From Streptomyces sp. NBRC 110035 (GTDB lineage: Bacteria > Actinomycetota > Actinomycetes > Streptomycetales > Streptomycetaceae), in the NCBI RefSeq assembly GCF_000829695.1, contig NZ_BBNN01000043.1:1-64000 (forward strand): a DNA stretch of 64,000 nucleotides. Direction: 5' to 3'. Below the pieces are notes generated by a model. It did not search any database. It worked only from the letters and a program-made list of their open reading frames with translations, and had not been told where the DNA came from. The position numbers were made by a program, and so were the translations under genes. Position 1 is the first letter of the stretch. Every line of letters begins with the position of its first letter. Positions 4,651 to 29,038 of this stretch are shown one piece after another.

Positions 4651-4937
4651 ATGAATCAGCCAGTTCCTGGGGGGGCACCCGAACGGTGACCGAGGCGACG
4701 GTGCGACCTGCGTCGAGGTGCTGTGGGACGCCGGCGCGGCAGTGTCCGGAGGGGAACCTGTTCCAGTGGCGAGACGGCGAGGGAGGAATCGTCGGATCTC
4801 TGTCTTTTCCGTGTGCTGACGCTCGTACTGCACTCCTCGACGGAGACGGGGGAACAGGTTCTACCGCCGCTCGGCTGCCGCGTCACGACCTGCCCGCAGG
4901 TATCCAGGGCGCCGTCTCACCCGTTTAGGCTGTGCCC

Positions 4938-5697: not shown

Positions 5698-5898
5698 GCG
5701 GTCACGCCAGGGGCTTCCGCGTCAGGGCAGGGGCCGTCCTGGGCCCGGGCGGCCACAGGTCGTCCCGGACCCTTGACTCCTCACGCGCCCGTAGTCATCC
5801 TCGGCTCATATCTTGTGCCGGTCATGACAATCTGCCGGGGGGTCCGGGCCGCCCGACAGGTCCGACCGTGCCGTTCCGCCGACGGAGGGACATGGGCC

Positions 5899-7962
5899 GT
5901 GACCATTGCTCGACACCGGCACGGCGGACGCCGTCATGCCGCCCTCGTGTCCCTGCTCGTGCTCGTGCTCGCCATGACCCTCGGCCCGACGCCCAGTTCG
6001 GCGGCCGGCGGCGACTGGTGGGAGCCGACAGCGCGGCCCGCCCCGGACTCCGGCATCGGCGTCACCGGCGAGCCCTTCACCGGCACCGACGCGCGCGGCG
6101 AGGTCCGCGGGTTCGTCGACGCGCACAACCACCTCATGTCCAACGAGGCCTTCGGCGGCCGGCTGATCTGCGGCAAGCCCTTCTCCGAGAAGGGGATCGC
6201 CGACGCACTCGAGGACTGCCCCGAACACTATCCCGACGGCTCCCTCGCGATCTTCGACTTCATCACCAACGGCGGTGACGGCAGGCACGACCCGGACGGC
6301 TGGCCCACCTTCGTGGACTGGCCCGCCCACGACTCCCTGACCCACCAGCAGAACTACTACGCCTGGATCGAGCGCGCCTGGCGCGGTGGGCAGCGGGTCC
6401 TGGTGAACGACCTCGTCACCAACGGCGTGATCTGCTCCGTGTACTTCTTCAAGGACCGCGGCTGCGACGAGATGACGTCCATCCGGCTGCAGGCGAAGCT
6501 GACATACGACATGCAGGCCTACGTCGACAGGATGTACGGCGGCACGGGCAGGGGCTGGTTCCGTGTCGTCACCGACAGCACACAGGCCCGGCAGGTCGTC
6601 GAGCAGGGCAAACTGGCGGTCGTCCTGGGGGTCGAGACCTCCGAACCCTTCGGCTGCAAGCAGGTCCTGGACGTCGCCCAGTGCGACAGGGGCGACATCG
6701 ACGCCGGGCTGGACGAGCTGTACGACCTCGGCGTGCGCAGCATGTTCCTGTGCCACAAGTTCGACAACGCGCTGTGTGGAGTCCGCTTCGACGAGGGAAC
6801 GCTGGGCACCGCCATCAACGTCGGGCAGTTCCTGTCGACCGGCACCTTCTGGCAGACGGAGCAGTGCACCGGCCCTCAGCACGACAACCCCATCGGCCTG
6901 GCCGCCGCGCCCGCCGCCGAGGAGGAACTCCCGGCCGGCGTCGAGGTTCCCGCCTATGACGAGGACGCCCGGTGCAACGTCCGCGGGCTCACCGACCTCG
7001 GTGAGTACGCCGTGCGCGGCATGATGGAACGCAACATGATGCTCGAGATCGACCACATGAGCGTCAAGGCCACCGGCAGGGTGCTCGACCTCTTCGAGGC
7101 CGAGTCCTACCCCGGCGTCATCTCCTCGCACAGCTGGATGGACATGGACTGGACCGAGCGGGTCTACGGTCTCGGCGGTTTCGTCGCCCAGTACATGCAC
7201 GGCTCGGAACACTTCGTCGAGGAGGCGGAGCGCACCGAAGCGGTCCGGGACAAGTACGGCGCGGGCTACGGCTACGGCACCGACATGAACGGCGTCGGCG
7301 GCTGGCCCGCCCCGCGCGGCGCGGACGCGCCCGATCCCGTCACGTACCCCTTCCGCAGCGTGGACGGCGGGTCCGTCATCGACCGGCAGACCACCGGCGA
7401 GCGCACCTGGGACCTGAACACCGACGGAGCCGCGCACCACGGACTCGTCCCCGACTGGATCGAGGACATCAGGCGCGTCGGCGGCCAGGACGTGGTGGAC
7501 GATCTCTTCCGGGGTGCCGAGACCTACCTCGGCACCTGGGGTGCCTCCGAACGGCACCGGCCTGCGGACAACCTCGCGAAGGACGCCCCGGCGACGGCGA
7601 GTTCGGCCGAGTGGAACCCGTTCACGAGCTACGCTCCGGGCCGGGCGGTGGACGGTGACCGGGGCACCCGCTGGGCCAGCGACCGGAGCGACGACCAGTG
7701 GCTGCGCATCGACCTCGGCGCCACACGCGAGGTGGGGCGCGTCACCCTCGACTGGGAGCGTGCGTACGGGACGTCGTACCGTGTCGAGCTGTCCGCCGAC
7801 GGCACCGACTGGCGGACCGTCTGGTCCACCACGGCCGGTGACGGCGGGCTCGACACGGCCCGGTTCACCCCTCGGCAGACCCGCCACGTGCGCGTCGTCC
7901 TCCTGGACCGGGGGACGAAGTGGGGCTACTCCCTGCGCGAAGTCGGCGTGCACGGCGGGTGA
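5899..7962 (+). CDS. Secreted amidohydrolase/M19-like protein with C-terminal F5/8C domain
   Basis: A 687-residue exported protein. GTG 5899 follows a GGAGG site at 5884-5888 and opens a signal peptide (Arg/His-rich n-region, Leu/Val core, likely cleavage after PSSAA). The catalytic region begins near residue 70 with VDAHNH, a metal-binding motif of the amidohydrolase/peptidase M19 superfamily, followed by VETSEPF and a run of conserved His (LEIDHMS, ISSHSWMD). From about residue 556 the sequence is a discoidin/F5/8 type C module (NLAKDAPATAS, then AVDGDRGTRWAS), normally used to bind carbohydrate. Many Cys suggest disulfides. The substrate is unknown. The gene converges with glpD, with a hairpin between. 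Confidence 0.75.
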   Translation: MTIARHRHGGRRHAALVSLLVLVLAMTLGPTPSSAAGGDWWEPTARPAPDSGIGVTGEPFTGTDARGEVRGFVDAHNHLMSNEAFGGRLICGKPFSEKGIADALEDCPEHYPDGSLAIFDFITNGGDGRHDPDGWPTFVDWPAHDSLTHQQNYYAWIERAWRGGQRVLVNDLVTNGVICSVYFFKDRGCDEMTSIRLQAKLTYDMQAYVDRMYGGTGRGWFRVVTDSTQARQVVEQGKLAVVLGVETSEPFGCKQVLDVAQCDRGDIDAGLDELYDLGVRSMFLCHKFDNALCGVRFDEGTLGTAINVGQFLSTGTFWQTEQCTGPQHDNPIGLAAAPAAEEELPAGVEVPAYDEDARCNVRGLTDLGEYAVRGMMERNMMLEIDHMSVKATGRVLDLFEAESYPGVISSHSWMDMDWTERVYGLGGFVAQYMHGSEHFVEEAERTEAVRDKYGAGYGYGTDMNGVGGWPAPRGADAPDPVTYPFRSVDGGSVIDRQTTGERTWDLNTDGAAHHGLVPDWIEDIRRVGGQDVVDDLFRGAETYLGTWGASERHRPADNLAKDAPATASSAEWNPFTSYAPGRAVDGDRGTRWASDRSDDQWLRIDLGATREVGRVTLDWERAYGTSYRVELSADGTDWRTVWSTTAGDGGLDTARFTPRQTRHVRVVLLDRGTKWGYSLREVGVHGG

Positions 7963-7982
7963 CCGGCCGGCGCGGGCCGGCC

Positions 7983-7997
7983 GAGCCGCTTCGGCTC
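7983..7997. terminator. Short stem-loop between converging genes
   Basis: GAGCCG, CTT loop, CGGCTC, about 20 bases after the secreted hydrolase stop and 60 bases before the glpD stop on the other strand. A second small dyad (GGCTG-tga-CAGCC) lies near 8036-8048. Confidence 0.5.
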
Positions 7998-8056
7998 AGC
8001 CGTGCCGACCGCGCTGCGACAACTGAGCTGCGACGGGCTGTGACAGCCGTGCCGCG

Positions 8057-9667
8057 TCAACTGCGCCGGGGCAGGACGCTGGTCAGGAGTTCACGGACCG
8101 CGTCCAGTGCCGCGGCACGGTCTGCGGGGACGAGGCCGATCCGGGTGCGGCGGTCGAGCAGGTCGCTCTCGTCGAGCGCTCCCTCGTGACGCACCGCCCA
8201 GAGCAGTTCGGCGCCGGTGACCGGATGGCCGGGCAGTACGGGTTCGCCCAGCCGGGCGTCGTGCACACCGAGGGAGTGCACGGCCGGTGCCTCCGTTCCG
8301 TAGCGCCGCACGAGGCGGCGGGGTGCCGGCAGGGTGGCAAGGGCCTGCGGCGGCGCGGCACCCACGAGCGGCAGGGACGTGGTGCGCGAAGGGCCGGCCG
8401 GCAGCCGTCGGACACGCACGGCGGTGTCCACGGCGTCCTCGGCCATGCGCCGGTACGTGGTGAGCTTGCCGCCGACGACGGTGACGACCCCCTCGGACGA
8501 CGTCAGCACCGCGTGCCGCCGCGAGATGTCGGCGGTCCTCGGCGCCGTACCGGAACCGTCCGCCGGGGTGTCCAGCAGGGGACGCAGGCCCGCGAAGGCC
8601 CCCACGACGTCGTCGCGGTGCAGCGGGGCGTCGAGGACGGAGCACAGGACGTCGAGGAGGAAACCGATGTCCGTCTCGGGGGCCTCGGGGACCTCGGGGA
8701 CGTCACCGTCCACGGGTTCGTCGGTGAGGCCGACATAGACCCGGCCGTCGTCCTGGGGCAGGACGAGGACGAAGCGGTTGGTCTCCCCGGGGACCGGGAT
8801 GTGCAGGCCGGCCGGGAGCGGGCCGAGACTGTCCGGGCGCAGCACGAGATGGGTTCCGCGCGAAGGACGGATCCGGATGCCGTCGACGAGTCCGCCCGCC
8901 CAGACACCGGACGCGTTGATCACCGCGCGGGCGCGGATGCGGCCCTCCTCGCCGGTGAGTTCGTCGCGGACCCGGGCACCGGAGGCGGTCAGCTCCAGGG
9001 CCCGGACCCGGGTGAGGATCCGTGCCCCGTGTGCGGCGGCGGTGCGGGCGACGGCGGTCACCAGGCGGGCGTCGTCGGTCAGCCGGCCGTCCCAGGACAG
9101 CAGACCGCCGCGCAGTCCGTCGGCCCGTACGGCGGGTGCCAGACGACGGGTCCTTGCCGACGGGATCCGGCGCGGCGCGGGCAGGGTCGCCCGCGAGGTC
9201 CGGGCGGCCAGCCGCAGGGCGTCGCCGGCCCGGAAACCCACCCGCGCCAGGGCGGACTGACGGTGGGAGACCAGAGGAGTGAGGGGCAGTACGAACGGCT
9301 GCGCGCGCACCAGATGGGGGGCGGTGCGCTCCATCAGCACCCCGCGCTCGACCGCGCTCTCGTGGGCGACGTCGAGCTGGCCGGAGGCGAGATAACGCAG
9401 CCCGCCGTGGACCAGCTTGCTGCTGAAGCGGGACGTGCCGAAGGCCAGGTCGTGGGCGTCGACGGCGACCACGCTCAGCCCGCGGGACGCCGCGTCCAGG
9501 GCGGCCCCTGCGCCTGTGGCACCGAGCCCGACGACGAGGACGTCGACGGCGTCGCCGCCCACGGCCGCGGTCAGGTCGCGGGTGCGGCGGCCCGCGGACA
9601 GGGACGAACCGGACGCAGCCGGTCCGGCGGACGAGGGCCGCCCGGCGGGGGAGTCCGGGGAGGTCAT
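8057..9667 (-). CDS. glpD: FAD-dependent glycerol-3-phosphate dehydrogenase
   Basis: A 536-residue flavoenzyme that oxidises sn-glycerol 3-phosphate to dihydroxyacetone phosphate at the membrane. After a ~30-residue disordered N-terminus comes the FAD-binding VDVLVVGLGATGAGAALDAA motif (about residue 42), then the GlpD signatures FGTSRFSSKLVHGGLRYL and GGKLTTYRRMAEDAVD, with the usual C-terminal helical domain. The ATG overlaps the stop of the upstream TetR gene by four bases (ATGA at 9664-9667), so the two are translationally coupled. Context next to an alkyl-DHAP-synthase-like gene and a lipid kinase suggests a role in phospholipid or ether-lipid precursor supply rather than only glycerol catabolism. 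Confidence 0.9.
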   Translation of the reverse strand: MTSPDSPAGRPSSAGPAASGSSLSAGRRTRDLTAAVGGDAVDVLVVGLGATGAGAALDAASRGLSVVAVDAHDLAFGTSRFSSKLVHGGLRYLASGQLDVAHESAVERGVLMERTAPHLVRAQPFVLPLTPLVSHRQSALARVGFRAGDALRLAARTSRATLPAPRRIPSARTRRLAPAVRADGLRGGLLSWDGRLTDDARLVTAVARTAAAHGARILTRVRALELTASGARVRDELTGEEGRIRARAVINASGVWAGGLVDGIRIRPSRGTHLVLRPDSLGPLPAGLHIPVPGETNRFVLVLPQDDGRVYVGLTDEPVDGDVPEVPEAPETDIGFLLDVLCSVLDAPLHRDDVVGAFAGLRPLLDTPADGSGTAPRTADISRRHAVLTSSEGVVTVVGGKLTTYRRMAEDAVDTAVRVRRLPAGPSRTTSLPLVGAAPPQALATLPAPRRLVRRYGTEAPAVHSLGVHDARLGEPVLPGHPVTGAELLWAVRHEGALDESDLLDRRTRIGLVPADRAAALDAVRELLTSVLPRRS

Positions 9668-10263
9668 GGGGTGAGGGTCCTCTCCAGGATGTCGCGCAGG
9701 TCCGCGAGGAGGGCCTCGTAGGTGAGATCCGGGTCGTCCTCGTCGGTCATGGTCCGCAGGGACAGGGTGAAGGACTGGACGATCAACAGGACGGACCGTG
9801 CCTGCCGTTCGGGAGGGCCGGCACGCACCGAACCGTCGGCGTGCCCCTCGCTCAGGGCCTCGGCCAGCAGTCCCAGCATGGCTTCCTGACTCGCCCCGCG
9901 CCGGTCCAGCACGTAGGGCAGCAGCAGTTCGGGATCCACGCCGACGATCTTCTGGAAGAGCGGGTGTCCGCCGAACGCGCGCACCACCGCCACCAACCCG
10001 TCGACCATCCGCTCCCGCGTGGTCACCCCCGGCCGGGCCTCGGGGACGGCCGAGGTGGCGACGGCGATCCACTCCCGCGTCATGAGGTCCCCGACCAGCG
10101 TGCGCACATCGGGCCACCGCCGGTACAGCGTCATACGGGAGACCCCGGCACGCCGCGCCACGTCGGTGAGCGTGGTGCGGCGGACCCCGACGGCCAGGAC
10201 ACAGTCGCGCACCGCGTCGAGCACGACGTCGTTGCCCGCTTGGTTGTGACGAATAGGCGTCAT
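9664..10263 (-). CDS. TetR-family transcriptional regulator
   Basis: A 199-residue protein with a typical N-terminal TetR helix-turn-helix (TTLTDVARRAGVSRMTLYRR, about residues 30-49) and a variable C-terminal ligand domain. It is co-transcribed and translationally coupled with glpD and faces the alkyl-DHAP-synthase-like gene. The start codon abuts a candidate operator at 10264-10278, so it most likely represses its own operon and the divergent one in response to a lipid or acyl ligand (inference). The mRNA may be leaderless or very short-leadered. Confidence 0.88.
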   Translation of the reverse strand: MTPIRHNQAGNDVVLDAVRDCVLAVGVRRTTLTDVARRAGVSRMTLYRRWPDVRTLVGDLMTREWIAVATSAVPEARPGVTTRERMVDGLVAVVRAFGGHPLFQKIVGVDPELLLPYVLDRRGASQEAMLGLLAEALSEGHADGSVRAGPPERQARSVLLIVQSFTLSLRTMTDEDDPDLTYEALLADLRDILERTLTP

Positions 10264-10278
10264 GTGTCACAGTGTAAC
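10264..10278. promoter_or_regulatory. Candidate TetR operator in divergent promoter
   Basis: GTGTCACAGTGTAAC is an imperfect dyad (GTnnCAC-n-GTGnnAC) immediately upstream of the TetR start, in the 70-bp gap before the divergent oxidase gene. Position and symmetry fit TetR autoregulation; binding is inferred. Confidence 0.5.
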
Positions 10279-10334
10279 GCCCGTGAGGCCGTCGGCGACG
10301 GCATCGCTCCCATCGACCGGTGAGGACGGCAGTC

Positions 10335-11954
10335 ATGGACATGCTGTGGAGCGGCTGGGGTGACCCGGCCGGGGCGAAGCCGCTGCCCGACACCGTGATC
10401 GGGCTGCTGCGCGACATGCTCGGCGTCAGGCCGCGCGAGGCCGCACCGGTCGCCCTCGGTGAAGTGACCGTCCCCGCGCCCCGGTTGGGGCCTGCGGCAC
10501 GGCGCGCGCTGGCCGCCGCCCTGGTCGGTGCGGACGGCGGTGCGGACGTCGGAGAGGACCCCGTGCGCACCGACCCGGAGGCCCGGATCCGGCACACCCG
10601 CGGCAAGTCCACCCCCGACCTGCTGCGCATCCGGGACGGCGACGTCACCGACATCCCCGAGGCCGTCCTGTACCCCGCGAGCCACGACGAAGTGCTCGCC
10701 GTCCTGCGCGCCTGCACCGAACACGGCCTGGCCGTGGTGCCGTTCGGTGGCGGCACCTCCGTCGTCGGCGGACTCGCTCCCGGCCGGCCGCACCCCTTCG
10801 TCGCCCTGGACCTGCGGCGCATGGACGGCCTGCTCGCCCTGGATCCGGTCTCCCGTACCGCCACCCTGCAGTCCGGCCTGCGCGCCCCGCAGGCCGAGGC
10901 GCTGCTCGCCGGACACGGCTTCACCCTCGGACACTTTCCCCAGTCCTACGAGTGGGCCACCATCGGCGGCTTCGCCGCCACCCGCTCCAGCGGCCAGGCG
11001 TCCGCCGGCCACGGCCGCTTCGACGAGATGGTGCTCGCCCTCACCCTCGCCACCCCCGAGGGCACCCTCGAGGCCGGCCGGGCCCCACGCTCCGCGGCCG
11101 GCCCCGACCTGCGCCAGCTCGTCCTGGGATCCGAGGGCGCCTTCGGCGTCATCACGTCGGTGACCCTCCGGATCCGGCCCGTGCCCCGGGCCCGCGTCTA
11201 CGAGGGCTGGCGCTTCGACTCCTTCGAGCAGGGGAGCGCCGCGCTGCGCCGTCTTGCCCAGGACGGGCCGCGCCCCACCGTGCTGCGCCTGTCCGACGAG
11301 ACCGAGACGCTGATCGGTCTCGCCCAGCCCGAGGCGATCGGCTCCGGCGCCGCCCGGCCCGCCGGATGCACGGCCGTCGCCGGCTACGAGGGCACGGAGG
11401 AGGACACCACGTACCGCAGGCGGGGCGCCGCGGCCGTCCTGCGCGCGTGCGGCGGAACCCCGCTGGGCGAGGAGCCCGGCCGGAACTGGGCCCGCGGCCG
11501 CTTCTCGGCCCCGTACCTGCGCGATTCCCTCCTCGACGCCGGGGCGCTGGCCGAGACGCTGGAGACCGCGGCGTTCTGGTCGGGCGTGCCCGCGCTGTAC
11601 ACCGCCGTCCGCGACGCCCTCACCGGCACGCTCACGGAGGCCGGCACCCCGCCCCTGGTGATGTGCCACATCTCCCACATCTACGAGAACGGCGCCTCGC
11701 TGTACTTCACCGTGGTGTCGGCCCAGGGCGACGGCGACCCCGTGGCGCACTGGAGGCGCGCCAAGCACGCCGCCAACGAGGCGATCCTCGCCGCCGGCGG
11801 CACGATCACCCACCACCACGCCGTCGGCACCGACCACCGGGACTGGTACGTCCGCGAGATCGGCCCGCTGGGCACCGACGCCCTGCGCGCCGTGAAGCAG
11901 CGCCTGGACCCGGCCGGAATCCTCAGCCCCGGCGTCCTCCTGCCCACGGACTGA
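10335..11954 (+). CDS. FAD-binding oxidase of the alkyldihydroxyacetonephosphate synthase type
   Basis: A 539-residue VAO/PCMH-family flavoprotein. ATG 10335 has a TGAGGA site at 10321-10326. The N-terminal region opens with MDMLWSGWGDP and RHTRGKSTPDLLRIRDGDV, both typical of bacterial AGPS-like proteins. FAD-binding VVPFGGGTSVVGGLAP lies near residue 137, and the C-terminus carries the HHHAVGTDHRDW stretch of the FAD-oxidase C-terminal domain. In animals AGPS swaps the acyl group of acyl-DHAP for an alkyl group to start ether-lipid synthesis; bacterial homologues are mostly uncharacterised. Neighbours GlpD (makes DHAP) and a lipid kinase support a DHAP-based lipid role. Confidence 0.82.
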   Translation: MDMLWSGWGDPAGAKPLPDTVIGLLRDMLGVRPREAAPVALGEVTVPAPRLGPAARRALAAALVGADGGADVGEDPVRTDPEARIRHTRGKSTPDLLRIRDGDVTDIPEAVLYPASHDEVLAVLRACTEHGLAVVPFGGGTSVVGGLAPGRPHPFVALDLRRMDGLLALDPVSRTATLQSGLRAPQAEALLAGHGFTLGHFPQSYEWATIGGFAATRSSGQASAGHGRFDEMVLALTLATPEGTLEAGRAPRSAAGPDLRQLVLGSEGAFGVITSVTLRIRPVPRARVYEGWRFDSFEQGSAALRRLAQDGPRPTVLRLSDETETLIGLAQPEAIGSGAARPAGCTAVAGYEGTEEDTTYRRRGAAAVLRACGGTPLGEEPGRNWARGRFSAPYLRDSLLDAGALAETLETAAFWSGVPALYTAVRDALTGTLTEAGTPPLVMCHISHIYENGASLYFTVVSAQGDGDPVAHWRRAKHAANEAILAAGGTITHHHAVGTDHRDWYVREIGPLGTDALRAVKQRLDPAGILSPGVLLPTD

Positions 11955-12074
11955 ACCGCGGCCCACCGGGTGCCGCCCTGCGGGGCGACCGCCCCGCCCG
12001 GCCACGCCCGTCCCCTCACCGCCGGCTTTCCCCCACCGCCTTTCCCGTCCCGTCGGCACGCCCGGAGGCACCTG

Positions 12075-12956
12075 ATGCGACAGTTCACCGCCGTCGTCAA
12101 TCCCACCGCGGGCGGATCCACCGGAGCGGCAGCGCTGCTCGCCCTCGCGCGCCTGCTCCGGGAGGCCGGCGCAGACCTGCACACGCAGTACAGCCGCAAC
12201 CTGGCCCACGCGCGGGAACTGGCCCGCGACGCCGGCCGGCGGGGCCGGGTGGTGCTGGCGGTCGGCGGGGACGGCATCGCCGGAGGCATCGGCGGCGCGC
12301 TGAGCGGCACCGGCGCGATCCTCGGCCTCGTGCCGGCGGGCCGCGGCAACGACTTCGCCCGTGCCCTGGGCCTGCCCGCCGATCCCGCGGCCCTCGCCCG
12401 GATACTGCTGCACAACGCACCGCGGCCGGTCGACACCATCGAGGTCCGGTCGGCCGTCCACCACCGCACCGTCGTCCTCGGCAGCGTCTACGCCGGTGTG
12501 GACGCGCTGGCCAACCGCCACGCCAACCGGTCCCGGCTGCTGCGGGGTTCCGCCTCCTACTACGCGGGCGGTCTGCGCGCGGTCACCGGCTGGAGGGCGG
12601 CGCGCTACCGGGTCACGGTCGACGGCGAGGAGCATACCCACACCGGCTACACGGTGGTCGCCGCCAACTCCGGCTACTACGGTTCGGGCCGCGTCATCGC
12701 TCCCCGCGCCCGCGTCGACGACGGCGTACTGGAGATCGTGATGATCGCGGACGCCTCGCGGCTGCTGTTCTTCAGCCTGATGAACGATCTCAGGACCGGC
12801 ACCCACGTCCACCGCCCCCAGGTGCGGATCCTGCGCGGCAGGGAGATCCGTATCCTCGCCGACCGGGACGTCCCCTACGGGGCGGACGGCGAGGTCGAGG
12901 CGGTTCTCCCGGTGACCCTCAGAGTCCTCCCCGGCGCACTTCACGTGCTCCGCTGA
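12075..12956 (+). CDS. Diacylglycerol/lipid kinase family protein
   Basis: A 293-residue soluble or peripheral protein. ATG 12075 follows GGAGG at 12064-12068. The fold is the DAGK catalytic domain: FTAVVNPTAGG at the N-terminus, glycine-rich LAVGGDGIAGGIGGAL near residues 60-75, and GLVPAGRGNDFARALG, the core nucleotide-binding signature. The family phosphorylates diacylglycerol, sphingoid bases or related lipids. It lies about 120 bp after the AGPS-like gene in the same direction and probably belongs to the same operon. Exact substrate unknown. Confidence 0.85.
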   Translation: MRQFTAVVNPTAGGSTGAAALLALARLLREAGADLHTQYSRNLAHARELARDAGRRGRVVLAVGGDGIAGGIGGALSGTGAILGLVPAGRGNDFARALGLPADPAALARILLHNAPRPVDTIEVRSAVHHRTVVLGSVYAGVDALANRHANRSRLLRGSASYYAGGLRAVTGWRAARYRVTVDGEEHTHTGYTVVAANSGYYGSGRVIAPRARVDDGVLEIVMIADASRLLFFSLMNDLRTGTHVHRPQVRILRGREIRILADRDVPYGADGEVEAVLPVTLRVLPGALHVLR

Positions 12957-13064
12957 CCGGCCCGGCGGCCCCTGGGCCATCCCGAACCGGACAACGTGCG
13001 CCGTACGGGACCGGAACGGTCCCCTCCCTGTGACTGCTCCGGCCCCGGCCGTGGTGTCGACCCC

Positions 13065-13172
13065 ATGACCACGGAGGCCCACACGAGCGACGACGCGGGG
13101 GAGGAGTTCGTGCAGGAACGCGTCAAGGCCTGGGACGAGGTCATGAACCTCGACCGGTTCGGCCCCGCCCGA
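13065..13172 (+). pseudogene. Remnant of a katG catalase-peroxidase C-terminus
   Basis: The frame reads SDDAGEEFVQERVKAWDEVM followed by NLDRF, which closely resembles the conserved extreme C-terminus of catalase-peroxidase KatG (SDDAKEKFV...AW.KVMNLDRFD). Nothing upstream matches the rest of KatG, and the native stop is lost because the frame runs on into DNA antisense to the next gene. An ATG sits at 13065 without evidence of use. This is a roughly 35-residue fossil of a gene of about 740 codons. Confidence 0.6.
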
Positions 13173-13276
13173 TCCACCCCGCGCGCCGGACGTCCCCGAC
13201 CCCTCGGGCGCGTCCGGCGCGCGGAGTGCGGTGTGGTGGGCCGGAAGCCCCCAAAGGGGCCGCTTGTGACGTCACG

Positions 13277-15764
<2,488 letters not shown>

Positions 15765-15770
15765 GCCGCA

Positions 15771-15809
15771 CCGGTCGGGCCGGTGGCAGAGGGCCACCGG
15801 CCCGACCGG
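15771..15809 (+). terminator. Strong hairpin after the P450 gene
   Basis: Perfect 17-bp arms (CCGGTCGGGCCGGTGGC and its complement) around a 5-nt loop, starting 6 bases after the P450 stop codon. No U-tract. Confidence 0.8.
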
Positions 15810-15944
15810 AGCGAGGCCGTCCGCCGTACCGTGCCCGCCCGGTGGACTCCCGGCTCCCGTACGGCACCCGGAAGATCATGAACCCGGGCTTCGTCCGGAC
15901 CCGGCGCGAAGCGCCACAAGGGGTGCGACAGGGATCGAGGAGAG

Positions 15945-16055
15945 ATGAAGAACGGCCACGAGGGGCGAAGAACGGCCAAGTATGGCGAGGAAATTCCACC
16001 ATCCGACCGCCCGTGGCGGGTTAATGTCGGTGTCAAGGAGCACAATGATCATTGA
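15945..16055 (+). CDS. Candidate 36-residue peptide gene
   Basis: ATG 15945 directly follows GAGGAGAG and opens a 36-codon frame ending TGA 16053-16055. The peptide is hydrophilic (begins MKNGHEGRRTAKYGEE, ends VGVKEHNDH) with a central IPPSDRPWRVN stretch and no signal or membrane segment. The spacing from ribosome-binding site to start is short. The stop codon lies inside a perfect 12-bp palindrome CAATGATCATTG (16043-16054). The local base composition is less GC-biased than the neighbours. It could be a small regulator, a leader peptide for the next gene or a modified-peptide precursor; none of these is shown. Confidence 0.35.
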   Translation: MKNGHEGRRTAKYGEEIPPSDRPWRVNVGVKEHNDH

Positions 16056-16122
16056 AAGAGATCAACACCGGCGCCGTGCTGGGTAGACGGTCTCGAGACC
16101 CGGCTCCGGAAAGGCCCCAGCG

Positions 16123-16554
16123 ATGCTCTTCACCGTCAACCAGACCCAGGACCGTCCGCGCGCCGGGCGGATGACCGCCGGGCTCCGGGCGGCCCCCGCA
16201 CCGTCATTCGCCCCGGTCGACGTCGACGTGCTGCGCATCATCTCCGACCCGCGCACCCCCAGCTTCGTCACGGTGTACGCGAACGGCCGCCGCAGGTACA
16301 GCTACTGGCGGCCGCTCGACTCGACCACGGGCCAGGGCGGCTGCTATGTCGCCCTGCCCACCACCGACTGCGACGCGCTGCACGCGGCCGGGAAGGTCGA
16401 GCTCGGGGACCCGGTCGTGGACCCGAACCGGACGACGTACCGGGTCAGCGCCTCCTCCACCCGGGTCGGTCCGCCCTCCCGGGCCCTGGCCGCGCCGATC
16501 CGCCCGGTGCAGGAGCGCCCCCGCCTGGTCCGGACCGCCGCCCGCGTCGCCTGA
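16123..16554 (+). CDS. Conserved hypothetical protein
   Basis: A 143-residue soluble protein. The central part (VDVDVLRIISDPRTPSFVTV, YSYWRPLDS, GGCYVALP) is well ordered and typical of a Streptomyces-restricted hypothetical family; both ends are Arg/Pro-rich and probably flexible. A weak AAAGG site precedes ATG 16123. It lies 67 bases after the candidate peptide gene in the same direction and converges with the DUF350 gene. Function unknown. Confidence 0.7.
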   Translation: MLFTVNQTQDRPRAGRMTAGLRAAPAPSFAPVDVDVLRIISDPRTPSFVTVYANGRRRYSYWRPLDSTTGQGGCYVALPTTDCDALHAAGKVELGDPVVDPNRTTYRVSASSTRVGPPSRALAAPIRPVQERPRLVRTAARVA

Positions 16555-16705
16555 AACGGCCGAGGGGCGCACTGTGCGGAGTGCGGGGGAGCGGGAGACG
16601 CGGCGGGGGAAGGGCGGTCCTCGGAGGCCGGGTCGGCCGGGCTTCCCGCCCCCGACCCCCTGACACCCCTTCAGGTCCGGGCGAAAGGCCGCCGGACGGC
16701 CGGCG

Positions 16706-17128
16706 TCAGGCGATGGACGCCGAAACGACCGCGGACACCGCGAGGTTGCAGGACGCGGTCACCCAGACCGCGGGGTGCGGTTCCCGGTCGACCAGGGTGC
16801 TGCCCAGGCGTCCCGGCGTGATGAGGTCCACCACCAGGAACGCGAGGGCCATCATGACCAGTCCCAGCAGCCCGAACGTGGCGGTCGACACCAGCCCCTT
16901 GCCGAAGTCCTCGTACGTCGTCCAGATGGACGTGAACACGATTCCGCCGATGCCGAGCAGTGCCGAGCTGAGTACCAGGGCGGCGTTGCGGTTGCGCTCC
17001 TCCCAGATCTGCCGGCCGAGTTTTCCGGGGGTCAGCAGGTCGACCAGGACGATGCCGAGCACCAGCAGGACCAGGCCGAGTGCGCCGTAGGCGGTGGCCC
17101 GGCCGAGTCCGTTGACGATGTCGCTCAT
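16706..17128 (-). CDS. DUF350 family membrane protein
   Basis: A 140-residue protein with four predicted transmembrane helices arranged as two similar halves, each ending in a VDLLTPGKLG / VDLITPGRLG turn and a helix. That internal duplication is characteristic of DUF350 (UPF0719). No biochemical role is established. ATG 17128 was chosen because it precedes the first conserved helix. Single gene converging with the hypothetical at 16123. Confidence 0.85.
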   Translation of the reverse strand: MSDIVNGLGRATAYGALGLVLLVLGIVLVDLLTPGKLGRQIWEERNRNAALVLSSALLGIGGIVFTSIWTTYEDFGKGLVSTATFGLLGLVMMALAFLVVDLITPGRLGSTLVDREPHPAVWVTASCNLAVSAVVSASIA

Positions 17129-19515: not shown

Positions 19516-19898
19516 CGCCGCGCCCTGCCCGCGTCCCAGGCCGAAGCCCTTCACCACGATCGCCGGGCGGCTGAGCCACCTGAGTGAAACGGTGCCGTTG
19601 CGCGCCGACCGCACCGTGGGCATCCACCGTCCCACCCGGGACGACTGTGCGGTCCGCGGTGAGGACACCGACGGCCCCTGCACCACAGGGGCGGGACCGT
19701 CCTGATCCGCGACCTCTGCAGCGCGCGACCCGTGCGCGGGACGTGATTCGGCAGGATGGCAATACGGCGATAGTTTTTTGCCCTTCTTTTGCCCTCGGGA
19801 ACACGGCCGCAACGGCGTCCGTTGAGCAGGCGGACCGCACCATCCGGGCCCGACGACCGGTACCGGAAAAGACAGCAACAGAAGCCGAGGTGGCACCA
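19516..19898 (+). other. 383-bp intergenic region before terB-like gene
   Basis: No supported gene. A short frame ending near 19704 has plausible codon bias (LSETVPLRADRTVGIHRP) but no identifiable family or start, and may be a remnant. An AT-rich patch with a T6 run at 19770-19800 is the likely promoter region for the TerB gene. Confidence 0.4.
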
Positions 19899-20477
19899 GT
19901 GGCGATGTGGGACCGGGTCAAGGACCAGGCCAGGGCACTCCAGCAGTCCCAGGGCGCGAGGTCGGGAGGAGGACAGCACGGGTCCCCCGGACCGGGACAG
20001 GCCGGCGGCCATTCCCGCGGCTCGTCCTCCGGCGGCTCCAAGGCCCAGCTGATGGGGCTGCTGAAGTCCCAGCTCGCGTCGGCGAAGACGGAACTCAAGA
20101 GCGGCGCCTACCGGGACGCGAGCATGGCGATGTGCGCGCTGGTCGCGGCCGCCGACGGGTACGTCGAGCCGGCGGAGCGGCAGCGCGTGGAAGAGCTGAT
20201 CGTCTCCAACGAGGTCCTGCAGAACTTCCCGCCGGACCAGCTCCGCAAGCGGTTCAACGAGCACGTGGACCAGCTCGTGGCCAACTTCGAACTGGGTAAG
20301 GCGAGGGCCCTGCAGGACATCGCGAAGGCGTCGAAGAAGCCGGTCGAGGCACGTGCGGTCATCCAGACCGGCATGGTCATCGCCGGTGCCGACGGCACCT
20401 TCGAGGCGACCGAGCAGTACGCCATCCGCGAGGCCTGCGCGGCCCTGGGCGTCTCGCCCGCGGAGTTCGGAATCTGA
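19899..20477 (+). CDS. TerB-family tellurite-resistance-like protein
   Basis: A 192-residue soluble protein. GTG 19899 has a GAGG site 8 bases upstream; ATG 19905 is the alternative. A Gly/Ser/Gln-rich linker (about residues 15-45) leads to an all-helical TerB domain: AMCALVAAADGYVEPAERQR, then MVIAGADGTFEATEQYAIRE, the duplicated acidic loops that bind metal in TerB. TerB proteins belong to membrane-associated stress complexes with TerC and TerD; Streptomyces has several such copies and this one stands alone. A strong terminator follows. Confidence 0.88.
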   Translation: MAMWDRVKDQARALQQSQGARSGGGQHGSPGPGQAGGHSRGSSSGGSKAQLMGLLKSQLASAKTELKSGAYRDASMAMCALVAAADGYVEPAERQRVEELIVSNEVLQNFPPDQLRKRFNEHVDQLVANFELGKARALQDIAKASKKPVEARAVIQTGMVIAGADGTFEATEQYAIREACAALGVSPAEFGI

Positions 20478-20549: not shown

Positions 20550-20579
20550 GGCCTCCTTCGGTTCCCGGCGGTCACCCCA

Positions 20580-21679
20580 CCCGTGGAACCGGCATCGAAG
20601 GTGTGGCCGAGCAGGTGCAGCGGGGCGGCCGACACCCCGGCCCGTTCCACCGCGTCCCAGTAGGCCAGAGCCACCCCGGCGTCCACCAGGCCGTGCACCA
20701 GCGGCAGTCCGTGACCGGCGGCGTGCAGCAGGGACTCCGACCGGCAGGAGGCCAGGGTCTCCTCGATCCAGGGCTGCGCGAGACAGCCGGCCGCCGCCGC
20801 GTCCGGCAGGTCCCCGGCGACCTCCCGGTCGGTGGGGCCGACGTGCAGCAGCCCGCCCCCCAGCACCAGTACGTCCTTCCGCTCCCGCATGCGGGTCAGA
20901 GCCCGCCCGGTGTCGAAGCAGTGCGGGAAGGAGTCGTCGACCACGACGGCCCCGGGCCGGAGCCGGTCGACGTCGAGCACCGCGGCGGCGGCGCTCACCG
21001 CCGTCACCAGAAGGTCCGCGCCGTGGACCGCGTCCGGCAGCACCCGCTCCGACTCCACGACCTCGAATCCGGCCGCACCGACCAGCCCCCGCTTCCGCAG
21101 CCGCCGTCCCAGGGCGTTCAGCCGCGGTCCGCTGCCCCGCACATCGCACAGGAGCAGTCGCCGGGGAGGCCGGGCGGCCTAGGACAGCAGCAGTTCCAGT
21201 GAGGAGGCGCCGATCGAACCCAGACCGGCGAACGCCACATCGAGATCCGAGAGGTCCCGGCCGGTGGCCTCCAGCGCCGCGTGCACCGTTTTCACCACGG
21301 ACACGACCGTCGCCGCGTGGCCCGTCGTCACGGCCGCCGGATGGCGCCCGGACCGCAGCACGTCGAAGCCGTATCCGGTGAGCGACGGAATCATCCCCGC
21401 CAGGGACACGCATCGCGCACCCCTGGAAGCGGCGAGTGACACCGCGCGGGCGGTGTACTCCACCAGTCCGGTGTCCGCCGCGAGTTCGTCGGCGAAGAAC
21501 GGGAGGGAGAAGAAGCCCGACCGGCCCAGCGGTGTGTCCACGGTCTCCACCAGGCGCGGGACACCCTCGGGGAACAGCAGAGCGCGTACCTCGGCCCGGG
21601 GCAGCGCCGACGCGGGCAGACCCGCCAGGCGCGCAAGATGTCCCGGCGCGGGCAAGTAGCCGATCAGGGCGGCGTCCAT
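20580..21679 (-). pseudogene. NAD(P)-dependent acyl-reductase-like gene with internal amber codon
   Basis: ATG 21679 opens a frame (MDAALIGYLPAPGHLARLAG) that reads 166 residues to a Rossmann start, VAFAGLGSIGASSLELLLS, then meets TAG at 21181-21179. The same frame continues without interruption as AARPPRRLLLCDVRGSGPR through a second half with LVTAVSAAAAVLD, GAVVVDDSFPHCFD and DVLVLGGGLLHVG, ending recognisably near GHTF before running into DNA antisense to terB. The two-part layout is reminiscent of cyanobacterial acyl-ACP reductases and related saccharopine/shikimate-dehydrogenase-like proteins; the assignment is tentative. Its start overlaps the truncated adenylation domain upstream, so it was probably the reductive release partner of that assembly line. 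The 3' end looks truncated. Confidence 0.6.
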
Positions 21680-23436
21680 GTTCCGTCGGCGCGGACCACT
21701 TCCAGGTCCGTACCGGCCACGGGGCGTCCGACCGGTACCTGCCGCACCTCGTCGCCGGGACGGGCGTCGGGGACCTGGCAGGTGGCGTTGACGGTCGTCT
21801 CGGTGGGTCCGTACAGGTTGGCGATCCGCGCACCGTTCCCGAACAGGTCGAACCAGCGGCGCACATGGTCCACGGGCAGTGCCTCACCGCCGACATGCAC
21901 CCACCGCAGTGCCGTCAGATCCGGTACGCCTGCCCCGCTTCGGGCCCTTTCCTCGGCGGCCGACAGCAACTGCTCCCAGAGCGTCGGCACCGAGCTCCAC
22001 ACACTGACCCGTGCCCGCTCCACCCGCGTGAGCAGCAGTTCGGGATCCCGCAACAGGCCACGTGGCACGGTCACGACGGTGCCGCCGACCAGGAGCGGTG
22101 CGAGCAACTGACGTACCGAGGCGTCGAAGCAGGGCGACGCGGTCGTCGGGACCGTAGCCGAAGGCGGTGACGGCCCAGTCGAGGTAGTTCTCCATCGCCC
22201 GGTGGGTGATCGGCACCGCCTTCGGGCGTCCCGTGGACCCGGAGGTGAAGATGACGTACGCGATTTGCTCGGCGTCGGACGGCGAGGCGAGGGGGCCGCC
22301 GTCGCAGGTGCGGTCACGTCGAAGTCGGCTTCCGTGCCCGTGCCCGTGCCCGTGCCCGTGTCCGGCAGGCTGTCGTCGATGACGGGCACCGCCCGTACGG
22401 CCGCCAGAGCGTCGACGGTGTGCCGGGTGGGGGTGTGGCACACCACGGTGGTCGCGCCGGTGCGTGCCAGCTGGTCGGCCAGCCGCGCGGTGGGGTGCTC
22501 CGGATCGAGCGGGACCCAGCCGGCCCCGGCGCGCAGGATGCCCACGACACCGACGACGGTGTCGGCGCCCGGCTCGGTGAGGAGTCCCACCAGATCACCG
22601 GGGCGTACGCCGCGGGCGTACAGGCGCGCGGCGAGCCGAGCGGAGGCGCGGTCGAGTGCCCCGTACGTGAGCGACGCATCCGCCGCGTCCACGGCGTCCG
22701 CGTCATCGACGGCGTCCACGGCGATCGCGCCGGGTGCCGTCCGGAACCGGTCGAGCAGCCGCGCGACCAGCGGGACGCTTCCGTCGTCCCGCACGGACGG
22801 GGACGGCACGACGAGTGCGCGTCCGGTGTCCGGCGACGGCGGCGACGACCGCGGTGTGCACAGCGCGGTCAGTTCGGCGCGAAGCTCCCGGTCCAGACGC
22901 GCCACGGTGGCCCTCCGGAACAACGGCTCCGGATAGTTCCACGACAGCCGTAGCTGCGGCCCGTCCGCCCAGCACAGCAGACTCAGCCGGGTCGCCGCCG
23001 ACCCGGTGCCGGCGGCGGTGGCCCGTACCTCCACCGGACAGCCGGCGGCCGGTTCCGCGGGGAAGCGGGCGAAGCTGAAGCCCGCGGGAGTCACTGTGCG
23101 GCTGCCGAAACCGGCACCAGCACCAGTGCCGGCACCGGGACGCGCGCCGGGGAGCAGCGCGGCCAGGTCCAGACTGCTCAGCCCGGCGTGCCGCTCGCTC
23201 CGCAGCCAGATCCCGCGCCACCGCTCCGCCAGGGCGGGAACCGACTCGCCGTCCGCCGTCCCACAGAGCAGGGGGAGGGCGTCGGCGAGTGGGCCGACCA
23301 GCCGCTCCACGTCCTCGAAGCGGTCCTCGCGACGCGCCCTGGCCACGTTGACCGCCACGTCCGGGCGCCCCGACCACCGTGCCAGACAGCGCACATACGC
23401 GGCGAGCAGCAAGTGGAACAGGGAGACCGCGTACCA
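21664..23436 (-). pseudogene. Truncated NRPS condensation-adenylation module
   Basis: The first frame starts mid-condensation domain (SLFHLLLAAYVRCLARWSG) with no N-terminal half or HHxxxDG motif, then enters an adenylation domain ([40 protein letters not shown]). Near 22.3 kb the frame shifts; the shifted frame holds [20 protein letters not shown], the A3 phosphate loop. Near 22.13 kb it shifts back, with loss of a few residues, to [19 protein letters not shown] and LYGPTETTVNATCQV. The coding stops at VRADGTWTPP, before the A7-A10 motifs, and there is no carrier domain. The stop overlaps the reductase ATG. Not functional as read. Confidence 0.8.
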
Positions 23437-26273
23437 CGGCCAGCACCTCGTCACCGTCCCGCCGGGCCTCGTCGAGCCGCCGCAGGACGAGAACCGCGCC
23501 GCCCTCACCGGGCACGAACCCGTCGGCCGACGCGCCGAAGGCACGGCTGCGCCCGGTCGGCGAAAGGGCCTGCGCCGGCTCCAGGCCCTGGTGGGCCGTC
23601 GCGGTGAGATGCAGGTCGACCCCGCCGACGACCGCGATGTCGCACTCGCCGTCCGCGAGACTGCGCCGGGCCAGATGCAGCGCCACCAGGCCCGAGGAAC
23701 ACGCGGTGTCCCCGGCGAGCGCCGGGCCGTCCAGATCGAGGCAGTGGGCCAGTCGCGCGGCGACCAGATGGGGAAGGTTGCCGGTCAGGGCCGACGCGGC
23801 CGGCGGCGTGCCGGCGGTGTTCGCGTCGGCCAGGAGCTGCCGGTAGCCGCTGTCGCCGACGGCTGCGAAGACTCCGGCCCGCAGGACCCGGCGACGGGGC
23901 CCGGCCTACCCGGCGCGTTCGAGTGCCTCGTGGGCGAGCTCGAGGAAGACGCGCGCCTGCGGGTCCAGCGCGCGCCTCCTCGTCGCCGATACCGAAGTGA
24001 CCGGCGTCGAAGGCGGCGGGGTCGTCCAGGAAGGCTCCCCAGCGTCCTGCCGCCCCGGGCCCTTCGGAACCGTCCGCGGCCCGGCCCTTCGTGTTCCAGC
24101 GGCCCGGGGGCACCGCGGACACGGTGTCGCGGCCGGTGGTCAGCAGGTCCCAGAACTCCTCCGGCGTGTCGGCCCCGGGGAACCGGCAGGCCATGCCCAC
24201 CACGGCGGTCGCGAACGCCCGGCCCGCGGCGGACGCGCCCTCCTGCCGGTCCGTGCCCGCGCCGTCCCTCGAGGTGCTGTCCGCCCCCGCGTCGTCCGCC
24301 TCGACGACGTCCATGAGATGGTCGGTGAGCGTGGCGACCGTGTCGTTGCGCATAACCGCCGGCCCCAGCGGGACACCGAGGGAACGTTCCAGCGCGGCGA
24401 GCGCCTCCATGGCCCGGAGCGAGGTGCCGCCGAGCTCGGCGAACCGTTCCCGGTCCCCGAACGACGCCCCGGGCACCCCCAGGACCGCGGCCCACACATC
24501 CCGCACCACGCGCCGCACGTCCCCACGCGAACGTGGCACCGCGCCCCGGCCCCCGGATGCCGACGGCCGCCGAGACCGTTTCACCGGGCCACCCGCCGCC
24601 GCCACTGTCCCCGGGCCGGCCACCGCCCCGGAACGGGCCGACGGCCGGTATCCGTCCGCCTCGAACCGGGACCGCATCCGCTGCCGCTGGACCTTGCCGC
24701 TCGTCGTCCGGGGGAACGCGGACGGCGGCAGCGCGAACACCCGTACGTCGTCGTGGCCCAGCGCCGCACGGACCCGCCGGGCAACCCGGTCCAGCACCCC
24801 GGACGCGGTGCGCGGCGGTCGCGCCCAGGCGACGAACACCACCACCCGCTCCCCACCGGTCACCGGATCGGTCGACCCGACCACCACCGTCGTACCGGCC
24901 GGCACCCCCGGCGTGCCGGACGCCACCTCCTCCAGGTCCGGGGCATGGAACGTACGGCCGTTGACGAACAGGACATCCTTGAAGCGGCCGCTGACACACA
25001 GTCGGCCGTCCCGCAGGAAACCCAGGTCGCCGGTGCGCAGCCAGCCGTCGGTGAAGGACCGCGCCGTCGCGTCCGGCAGGCCGTGGTAACCGCGGGCGAC
25101 CTGCGGACCGCTCACCTCGACGTACCCCACCCTCCGGTCGCCCAGGGGTCGGCCCGCGTCGTCGGTGATCCGCACCGAGCAGCCCGCGACCGGCACCCCG
25201 ACGTCCATCAGCTCCACCAACCCGGTGTCGTCACCACCGGGTTCCCGCTCCACCACGCGGCCCCGGCCGAGCGCGGACCGCTCCACGGCCACCGGCACGG
25301 CCACCTCTCCCAGCGGCGGGAACGCCACGGCAAGCGTCGCCTCGGCCAGGCCGTACACGGGCGTCGCCGCCCGCGGGTCCAGCCCCGACGCCCGGGTCCT
25401 GGCGGCGAAGTCCCGCCACACCGCCGCCGATATCGGTTCGGCCCCCACCGTGATCAGCCGGGCCGAGCTCAGGTCCAGCCCGGCGAACACCTCCTCGGGA
25501 ACCCGGCGAAGGGTCAGCGCCAGCGCGAAGTTGGCGGCCGAGAGGACGGTGGCCCGGTGCGCGGCGGCCACGTCGAACCAGAGCCGGGGGTTCTTCGCGA
25601 ACGCCAGGGGACCGATCTTCACCTGCCTGGCCCGCGCGGCCAGCGGCGCCAGATGTGTGCCGATGAGCCCCATGTCGTGGAAGTAGGGCATCCAGCTGAC
25701 CACCACGTCGTGCTCCGTGAGGGCGGAGGCCTCCGTCAGCTGCCGCAGGTTCGCCGGCACGGCCGCGTGGGTCAGCTCCACGCCCTTGGGCGCCCCGGTG
25801 CTGCCGGACGAGAACTGCAGGAAGGCCAGTCCGTCCGGCTCCGGTGCGGCGGGGGAGTCCAGGGGCGGACCCTCCCGCAGCACCTCCGTGCGCAGGGCCC
25901 GGGCACCGCCCGGGAGTTCGGCGGCCACCGGCACACAGGCCGCGTCCACCACGACCGGGGGACGGCCCAGGTGCTCCCACACCGGCAGGACCCGCCGTAC
26001 GTCCGGCGCCAGCGGCACGGGCACCAGACCGGCCGCGAGCGCGCCCCAGAAGATGGGCTGGAAGTCGGCGCTGTGCTCCGCGAGCAGCGGAACGCAGGTG
26101 CCCGGCGCGACGCCCGCGGCACGGAGACCGGCCGCGACGCGCAGCGACTCGGCCACGAGCTCCCGGAAGGTGACGGCCGTTTCGCCGCCGTCGCCCCTGA
26201 CGTGGACGATCAGCTGGTCGGGGGAGTTGCGGGCGGTGTCCAGCAGGACGTCCAGCAGGGTCGCGGTGTTCAT
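23424..26273 (-). pseudogene. Fatty acyl-AMP ligase - ACP - ketosynthase gene, broken
   Basis: ATG 26273 opens a fatty acyl-AMP ligase (about residues 1-575; LQFSSGSTGAPKGVELTH near 150, PYFHDMGLIGTHL near 195), an acyl carrier domain (about 605-690; phosphopantetheine Ser in LGGTSL) and a ketosynthase starting VVGMACRFPGADTPEEFWDL near 720. FAALs load free fatty acids as acyl-adenylates onto ACP, starting lipopeptide or lipid-PKS chains. The KS is damaged three ways: a two-base loss in a GCGCGCGC run at 23968-23975, a TAG at 23908-23906 where Tyr is expected, and an abrupt end after DEVLAVVRG at about 23424-23436, where a condensation-domain fragment begins in another frame. The KS active-site Cys (DTACSSGL) survives. 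The FAAL-ACP part could still be expressed. Confidence 0.85.
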
Positions 26274-26481: not shown

Positions 26482-27930
26482 ATGTCTGGCGGGTCGGTGT
26501 CGACGACGTATCTGGAGCTGTCACAGGATGACGGCGCCGCACACAAGTTCTACGAGGTGGCCGTCGACGGCCCGGTGGTGACCGTTCGCTACGGACGGAT
26601 CGGTGCCTCGGGGCAGACCCAGATCACCACCTTCCCCTCGGCGGACAAGGCGCGGGCCGCCGCCGCGAAGAAGGTCGGGGAGAAGGTCCGCAAGGGGTAC
26701 GCCCCCGCCGTTCCCGGGCAGCGCGCGCCGCGTGCGGTGACCCGGCGTCAGGTGGCGTCCGCCCCCTCCACCGCGCGCGCGGTGGCCCCCGTGCTGTGGC
26801 GGTTCGGCACCGGCTCCGCGGCGTTCGGCATCCATGTCGACGACGAGCACTGCTGGGTCGGCAACCAGGCGGGCGACGTCTACACCCTGGACCACGACGG
26901 CCGGGTACTGGCCCGCTTCAACCTGCCGGACGGCGTGAAGTGCCTGGTGGCCGACGACTTCTGGATCTACGCGGGCTGTGACGACGGCAAGGTCTACGAC
27001 CTGTCCTCCAAGCTGCCGTTCGCGGCGTACGACATCGCCGCGGACGTCGACATCTTCTGGCTGGACATCCACGAGGGCGTACTGGACGTCTCGGACCGCG
27101 ACGGCAAGCTCACCGTCATCGACCACGAGGACGAGCACCAGTGGTCCCGCCGCAGCCAGGGCGACCACGCCTGGATGGTGCGTGCCGACGACCGGGCCGT
27201 CTACCACGGTCATCACCAGGGCGTCACCGCCTACGCGCCCGACGGGGGCGGAGAGTTGTGGCACACGCCCACCCGCGGCGGCGTGCTGTTCGGCTGGCAG
27301 GAGGACGACACCGTGTACGCGGGCACGGCGCACCGCGTGGTGCAGCGGCTGTCGAAGGAGAGCGGGACCATCGAGGCCACCTACGCCTGCGACAGTGCCG
27401 TGTACTCGTGCGCCACCTCGCCCGGCGGCCGGTTCGTGTTCGCCGGTGACGCGGCGTCGTCCGTCTACTGCTTCGACCAGGACGGCACCAGGCTGTGGAA
27501 GCTCGGCACGGGCGGCGGCTCCGCCCTGTCGATGCAGTACCGCAACGAGCGGCTGTACCTGGTCACCACCGACGGTTCGCTGGTCTGTGTCGACGCGAGC
27601 GAGGCGGCCGTCTCCGCCGCCCAGCAGGGCACGGTGCCGGTCGCGCGGGACGTCAAGCTCGCCGAGGCACTGCCGACCTACGCGCCGGCCACGACGGCGA
27701 GCGCGGTGAGCGCGGTGGCCCAGGCCCCGACCGGGGCGATCGTCGTCCAGTGCGTTCAGGACTCCGGCCGCCTGCGCGTGCACGTGGTGTCCGAGGGGTA
27801 CGACTCGTCGTGGAACGTGCAGTTCCCGCGTGCGATACGGGAGCCCGGGGCCCGCTATGTCGTGGACGCCCTGCACCCGGCGGCCGGTGGCTTCTACCGG
27901 GTCCGCGGGGACATCCGCCGACTGCTCTGA
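26482..27930 (+). CDS. WGR-domain protein fused to a PQQ/WD-like beta-propeller
   Basis: A 482-residue protein. ATG 26482 has a GGGAGGG site 7 bases upstream. Residues ~5-75 form a WGR domain (FYEVAVDGPVVTVRYGRIG, then TTFPSADKARAAAAK), a fold best known in PARPs and in short bacterial proteins where it contacts nucleic acid ends. After a basic linker (~76-105), residues ~110-480 are a repetitive beta-propeller with alternating W/Y-G-D blades (GNQAGDVYTLDHDGRVLARF, AGDAASSVYCFDQDG). No signal peptide is present, so it is cytoplasmic. Role unknown; a DNA-damage or stress scaffold is possible but unproven. A perfect hairpin follows the gene. Confidence 0.82.
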   Translation: MSGGSVSTTYLELSQDDGAAHKFYEVAVDGPVVTVRYGRIGASGQTQITTFPSADKARAAAAKKVGEKVRKGYAPAVPGQRAPRAVTRRQVASAPSTARAVAPVLWRFGTGSAAFGIHVDDEHCWVGNQAGDVYTLDHDGRVLARFNLPDGVKCLVADDFWIYAGCDDGKVYDLSSKLPFAAYDIAADVDIFWLDIHEGVLDVSDRDGKLTVIDHEDEHQWSRRSQGDHAWMVRADDRAVYHGHHQGVTAYAPDGGGELWHTPTRGGVLFGWQEDDTVYAGTAHRVVQRLSKESGTIEATYACDSAVYSCATSPGGRFVFAGDAASSVYCFDQDGTRLWKLGTGGGSALSMQYRNERLYLVTTDGSLVCVDASEAAVSAAQQGTVPVARDVKLAEALPTYAPATTASAVSAVAQAPTGAIVVQCVQDSGRLRVHVVSEGYDSSWNVQFPRAIREPGARYVVDALHPAAGGFYRVRGDIRRLL

Positions 27931-28859: not shown

Positions 28860-28940
28860 CCGGTACGACTGCCGTTCGTGCGGACCGGCCGTCGTGACGG
28901 CCGGCCGGCGGAGGCGCCACCGCCTCCGGTACGGTTCAGC

Positions 28941-29038
28941 CGACCGCCCGACCGCCCGACCGCCCGACCGCCCGACCGCCCGACCGCCCGACCGCCCGAC
29001 CGCCCGACCGCCCGACCGCCCGACCGCCCGACCGCCCG
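28941..29038. repeat. 8-bp minisatellite (CGACCGCC), 12 perfect copies
   Basis: Twelve identical tandem copies of CGACCGCC plus two bases (98 bp). It lies in the 361-bp gap (28860-29220) between the FAD-subunit gene and the convergent glutamate-cysteine-ligase-like gene; no gene was seen in that gap. Because 8 is not a multiple of 3, copy-number change would shift any frame that crossed it. Perfect identity suggests recent expansion by slippage. Confidence 0.95.

Follow-up and report, generated by a model that had tools for sequence, protein, structure and literature searches.

Fatty acyl-AMP ligases (FAALs) initiate a number of hybrid lipopeptide and polyketide assembly lines, for example those of the vatiamides, in which a FAAL-activated fatty acid is passed to an acyl carrier protein (ACP). 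The vatiamides are made by multi-gene clusters. The cyanobacterial acyl-ACP reductase AAR, whose fold we return to below, is a stand-alone enzyme. Vatiamides stand in the FAAL table of PMC11837247, in its accessible part. In VatR and HcaD, of the vatiamide and hectoramide pathways, a related release domain directly follows the PCP; terminal amidation by ammonolysis has been proposed for these domains, with the mechanism unstudied according to the accessible part of that paper (PMC10949194). The cyanobacterial TAD of the carmabin pathway is represented by five structures (PDB 9E4S, 9E4U, 9E4X, 9E50, 9E56).

Here we describe a related arrangement in Streptomyces. The window (the whole 64,000-nucleotide stretch of Streptomyces sp. 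NBRC 110035 that was analysed) carries on its minus strand, at 20561-26273, the remnant of one megasynthase gene with the domain order FAAL-ACP-KS-AT-KR-ACP-C-A-PCP-C-TAD-like, a pseudogene recognized from three blocks that match an intact gene of Streptomyces hirsutus. The original prediction, made from the window alone, had noticed one of its junctions, where a ketosynthase (KS) runs into the middle of a condensation (C) domain.

Intact relatives and their distribution

We searched the 5.7-kb remnant against 392 genomes of the genus and used only long aligned rows; short generic similarity to PKS and NRPS genes by itself gave some match in all 392. Twelve relative loci were fetched at length for comparison. 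The closest relative is S. hirsutus NRRL B-2713 (NZ_LIQT01000220.1; locus L032), with approximately 91% DNA identity. Its intact ORF (3108-15617) runs uninterrupted for 4169 amino acids. The terminal domain of L032 is identical to that of another locus, L045, and we take both as one S. hirsutus NRRL B-2713 record.

A single open frame of 3925-4410 amino acids is found in 11 of the 12 relatives. Pfam searches of two intact proteins give two AMP-binding, three PP-binding and two Condensation stretches, plus KS, AT and KR, and the motif positions in the relatives give the order FAAL-ACP-KS-AT-KR-ACP-C-A-PCP-C. In a motif scan, the KS cysteine, the HHxxxDG of both C domains and a cysteine of the terminal domain are present in all 11; a strict carrier-protein pattern recovers all three carriers in only five of the 11, and individual KS, KR or NAD-site patterns fail in one or two of the rows. 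The twelfth relative, L036 (genome G057; ORF 9347-16990, minus strand), has a stop inside the first C domain, at another place than the window, and is an independent truncation of the same megasynthase. The ancestor, as kept in the relatives, was one ORF of approximately 3900-4400 amino acids that encoded FAAL-ACP-KS-AT-KR-ACP-C-A-PCP-C-TAD-like. The original prediction had taken the ancestor to be a FAAL-ACP-KS ... C-A lipopeptide-type line, which is the order present in the intact relatives. It had also proposed a search for an intact Streptomyces locus in which C-A is followed by the same reductase. The S. hirsutus gene is such a locus (FAAL-ACP-KS-AT-KR-ACP-C-A-PCP-C-R in one 4169 amino acid ORF), with the correction that the "reductase" present in the relatives is no separate gene product but the megasynthase's own C-terminal domain.

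How widespread is the gene? A profile of the terminal domain (E-value 1e-20) matches at least 71 of the 392 sampled genomes, the window's included. In 57 of these 71, the domain lies inside an open frame of at least 3700 amino acids. The 14 genomes lacking such a frame are the window's own, G055, G093, G285, G065, G356 and eight in which the match is possibly at a contig end.

Among the matches listed, three are short and partial and look like remnants of the terminal domain (G055:C3:3499714-3500055, G093:C1:7921801-7922181 and G285:C1:7906483-7906782). Also among the matches listed are TAD-like domains in shorter frames: G065:C1:7977739-7978695 (613 amino acids), G356:C35:89695-90798 (1526 amino acids) and G252:C4:471669-472601 (461 amino acids). 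These might represent a second context for the domain.

Eighty of the 128 loci in a named collection comprise 78 from Streptomyces, one from Nonomuraea and one from Microtetraspora. The frame upstream of the terminal domain is open to the end of the fetched DNA in 76 of these 80 loci, and it is open for 3333 codons in 64. Neighbouring genes, called roughly from ORFs and GC3, are not conserved: the commonest family downstream occurs at only 14 of 73 loci (those of the 80 with at least 4 kb downstream), and the commonest upstream at only five of 18 (20 were fetched and two without a FAAL start were dropped). No partner genes of the megasynthase were identified beside the sampled loci, either upstream or downstream. 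Since no gene family consistently adjoins it, the megasynthase gene may by itself constitute the pathway. In contrast to the vatiamide systems, we find here a single gene and no conserved neighbourhood.

Two large deletions and five smaller lesions

The window and the S. hirsutus orthologue have in common three retained blocks, their order (with 90.7-91.4% identity over ungapped columns) and the upstream flanking gene. Unlike the window, the orthologue has an open 4169 amino acid ORF with AT, KR, ACP, complete C and A domains, PCP and a second C domain. The first block of the remnant begins with a FAAL region (24654-26273, minus strand, as are all parts of the remnant; lower border approximate), whose frame is open and which matches Pfam PF00501 (E-value 5.4e-57) and the NCBIfam fatty acyl-AMP ligase PRK09192 (E-value 2.5e-97, below the curated cut-off). 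It is followed by an ACP domain (24315-24509; PF00550, E-value 5.8e-13, residues 589-653) and a KS that is split between two frames. The first part of the KS (23973-24206) covers positions 5-83 of the PF00109 profile (residues 690-767), and the second part (23428-23968), which has the DTACSS motif, covers positions 115-252. A frameshift at 23973-23975, where the window is 2 bp shorter than S. hirsutus, lies between them, and an in-frame TAG is found inside the second part (23908-23906).

The KS runs directly, with a change of frame, into the second half of the first C domain (22730-23427, lower border approximate; S. hirsutus position 10446 onward). This first junction lies at 23427/23426 (minus strand). 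The frame of the KS stops at about 23428, and the translation past the junction, read from 23427 in another frame, is VSLFHLLLAAYVRCLARWSGRPDVAVNVARARREDRFEDVERLVGPLADALPLLC. The KS side is recognized by PF00109 (profile 115-252 of 252, E-value 1e-41) and the C side by PF00668 (profile 250-329 of 456, E-value 8.5e-8). Past the same point, the S. hirsutus KS continues as VRG-TAVNNDG. The original prediction had put the junction at 23424-23436, right to within a few bases, and had correctly described the C-terminal half of a C domain following in another frame; it had expected a continuation of the SAVNQDG type after VRG, and TAVNNDG is of that type. It had also described the KS as normal up to the junction. 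The KS does end as described, but the frameshift and the TAG precede that end.

Alignment to S. hirsutus shows that 4475 bp are absent at this junction (23426-23427): the C-terminus of the KS, AT, KR, ACP and the N-terminal half of the C domain with its HHxxxDG motif. The original list of lost parts (KS C-terminus, AT/ACP and C-domain N-terminus) agrees with this except that it did not include the KR. DNA alignments to the relatives break between window positions 23482 and 23422 in 12 of 12 cases, mostly exactly at 23427, and in all 12 relatives the FAAL-ACP-KS and C-A segments are approximately 4.1-4.8 kb apart, in 11 of them within one ORF. The internal deletion that had been proposed is thus borne out by the relatives. 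A 200-bp probe over the junction, with matches listed from 61 genomes, has a full-length match only in the window's own genome; the next longest among the matches listed covers 109 of the 200 bp.

The A domain (21685-22704; PF00501 profile 10-129 and 216-357) lacks its C-terminus. Compared with S. hirsutus it has lost 1 bp at about 22293 and 14 bp at about 22144; the two losses sum to 15, which leaves only the stretch from one to the other in the wrong frame. At the end of this block lies the second junction (21679-21680), where 2269 bp of the S. hirsutus gene are absent, namely the C-terminus of the A domain, the PCP and the second C domain. The break falls between window positions 21713 and 21678 in all 11 relatives whose alignment continues that far. 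The third block is the TAD/acyl-ACP-reductase-like terminal domain (20561-21679), identified by reading and by alignment to S. hirsutus. It has an in-frame TAG (21181-21179), and its frame in the window extends beyond the site of the S. hirsutus stop.

Together the two deletions remove 6744 of the 12510 bp of the S. hirsutus ORF, or 54% of the gene. Four more indels relative to S. hirsutus are each a multiple of three. The lesions number seven: besides the two large deletions, there are three indels that shift the frame and two TAG codons. The "fusion" of the original prediction is therefore not a functional one; it marks one of two large deletions that are accompanied by five smaller lesions. 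The comparison of flanks for microhomology that had been suggested, made by eye against S. hirsutus and L038, gives no more than 1 bp of shared sequence at the first junction and none at the second. Both deletions may have been closed by near-blunt end joining. Homologous recombination between repeated synthase domains, considered as a cause of the deletions, is rejected in view of the 0-1 bp shared at the joins.

On either side of the remnant are genes on the plus strand. One (26506-27930) has a WGR domain plus a PQQ-like propeller and is aligned in L032, L034 and L035. The other (19584-20477) has a TerB domain and is aligned in L034, L035, L038 and L039. A perfect 8-bp tandem repeat, CCGACCGC, is present in 12.4 copies at window positions 28940-29038, beside a FAD-binding gene upstream of the remnant. 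Repeated PKS-like matches on the same contig (G000:C47:61126-80652, partly past the end of the window) suggest a second PKS cluster.

Alternative explanations and the age of the loss

Could the junctions be products of assembly? PKS and NRPS genes are frequently misassembled, and in a draft of 89 contigs an intact megasynthase with its repetitive domains could have been collapsed by the assembler. However, junctions that share 0-1 bp are not collapsed repeats. They are also accompanied by two stop codons and three small indels that shift the frame, while the one flanking gene compared, that of the WGR/PQQ-like protein, has no internal indel relative to S. hirsutus. Nor do the lost segments appear on another contig. 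In the rest of the assembly, the best-scoring match is 67% over 407 bp for the first segment and 73% over 233 bp for the second, values like those of generic PKS and NRPS paralogues. Of the matches that exceed 100 bp, none in the assembly is more than 76% identical; identities of up to 97% are confined to short stretches of about 30 bp, which is what other PKS and NRPS genes would give. The terminal domain is present in the window's genome as a single copy, at this locus. The clean flanking gene, the absence of the lost segments elsewhere and the stop codons make misassembly an unlikely source of the junctions, judging from the sequence, and we give little credence to a collapsed intact gene.

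A rearranged but working enzyme, in which programmed frameshifting or domain swapping gives a new KS-C hybrid, is harder still to credit. The codon-position pattern of substitutions does resemble that of intact genes. On the other hand, the frameshift and the TAG within the KS come before the first junction, and by S. hirsutus positions the histidine motifs of the KS, the HHxxxDG of the first C domain and the second and third carriers all fall in the lost stretches. The frames of at least 3700 amino acids around the terminal domain in those 57 of 71 genomes are, moreover, too long for the window's arrangement. Least probable of all is an ancestry in two neighbouring genes (FAAL-KS and C-A) with the junction as a gene fusion: beyond the domain order we found nothing that speaks for it, whereas 11 of the 12 relatives hold all domains in one ORF, and L036, the one exception, is a gene cut short within its C domain. 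In our reading, the window gene is very probably an inactivated single-gene hybrid PKS-NRPS, a pseudogene with multiple lesions that was probably lost recently. The product cannot be made from this gene in the window strain.

We looked for traces of the time of loss in the substitutions. With L038 as outgroup, there are 250 unique changes on the window branch and 162 on the S. hirsutus branch. The share of changes at codon positions 1 and 2 shows no shift on the window branch (Fisher's test, p-value 0.48 against L032 and 1.0 against L038). An unchanged pattern is what a recent loss would predict, and relaxed selection by codon position is not seen on that branch with this outgroup. With L034 as outgroup, the ratios of window to S. 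hirsutus changes are 1.13, 1.71 and 1.42 in the three blocks and 1.16 in the flanking gene; the block ratios are only partly above that of the flanking gene. Either the loss is recent relative to the divergence from S. hirsutus, or the gene was by then under weak selection, and these data do not separate the two.

The terminal domain and the intact family

Pfam gives no significant match for the last region of the S. hirsutus protein. NCBIfam gives only a weak one, between residues 60-281 of the terminal domain and the N-terminal region of PigE of prodigiosin biosynthesis (NF053554; E-value 1.1e-10); its 40.5 bits fall short of the curated cut-off of 850, and the family name marks PigE as an aminotransferase. 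An AlphaFold2 model of the domain was built with 29 sequences (pLDDT 89.2). Its similarity is highest to the carmabin-pathway TAD (Z 44.4-45.0), followed by acyl-ACP reductase (28.4-28.5), with the next row at 13.6, and Foldseek ranks the same two families first. The fold shared with the TAD covers the whole terminal domain (chain 9e4s_B: Z 45.0, 360 residues aligned, rmsd 2.2, 28% identity), and the relationship is also found by phmmer (E-value 1.5e-38). With AAR (PDB 6JZQ, 6JZU) the overall fold is shared at Z 28.5 over 321 residues and about 20% identity. Cys312 of L045 aligns to Cys334 of the TAD chain and is invariant in all 29 rows. By the residue ranges, Cys334 would be Cys2238, the residue crosslinked to dephospho-CoA in 9E56, and the terminal cysteine of the Streptomyces enzymes is probably its equivalent.

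The Streptomyces proteins depart from VatR and HcaD in one respect. Instead of directly following the PCP, the terminal domain is preceded in 11 of 11 Streptomyces relatives by a second C domain with HHxxxDG. A C domain preceding a TAD is not described in the accessible parts of PMC10949194, PMC7602127, PMC11877528 and PMC11837247, or elsewhere in the literature found.

From the domain order we can propose how the intact enzyme would work. The FAAL would load a fatty acid onto the first ACP, and KS-AT-KR would add one two-carbon unit and reduce it to give a 3-hydroxyacyl chain. C-A-PCP would then add one amino acid, and the second C domain together with the terminal domain would release the chain. 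Release might yield a primary amide, the outcome proposed for the related cyanobacterial domains, or an aldehyde, by analogy to acyl-ACP reductase; the reductive alternative is made possible by the AAR-like fold and by the titles of the TAD structures, which name complexes with NAD and NADH.

Tentatively, and with somewhat less than even confidence, we suggest that these genes represent a widespread, uncharacterised family of single-gene actinobacterial megasynthases, in which a 3-hydroxyacyl amino acid is released by a new C-plus-TAD unit as a lipo-amino amide or aldehyde, and that the gene has been lost repeatedly and independently across the genus. The literature on release domains, FAALs and carmabin (titles and starts of abstracts of up to 20 papers per search, subscription papers not included) gave no description of the Streptomyces enzyme, and a search by PDB code brought up no paper. 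The deletion itself is ordinary gene decay, and the main interest lies in the intact orphan family: a stand-alone enzyme of about 4000 residues, present in many Streptomyces, with a release domain whose descriptions in the literature found all come from cyanobacteria, and whose chemistry there is unsettled. Since the entire pathway may be encoded by one gene, expressing it in a heterologous host could reveal the product and the role of the C-TAD pair, and the window strain offers a natural null for comparison with the intact enzyme.
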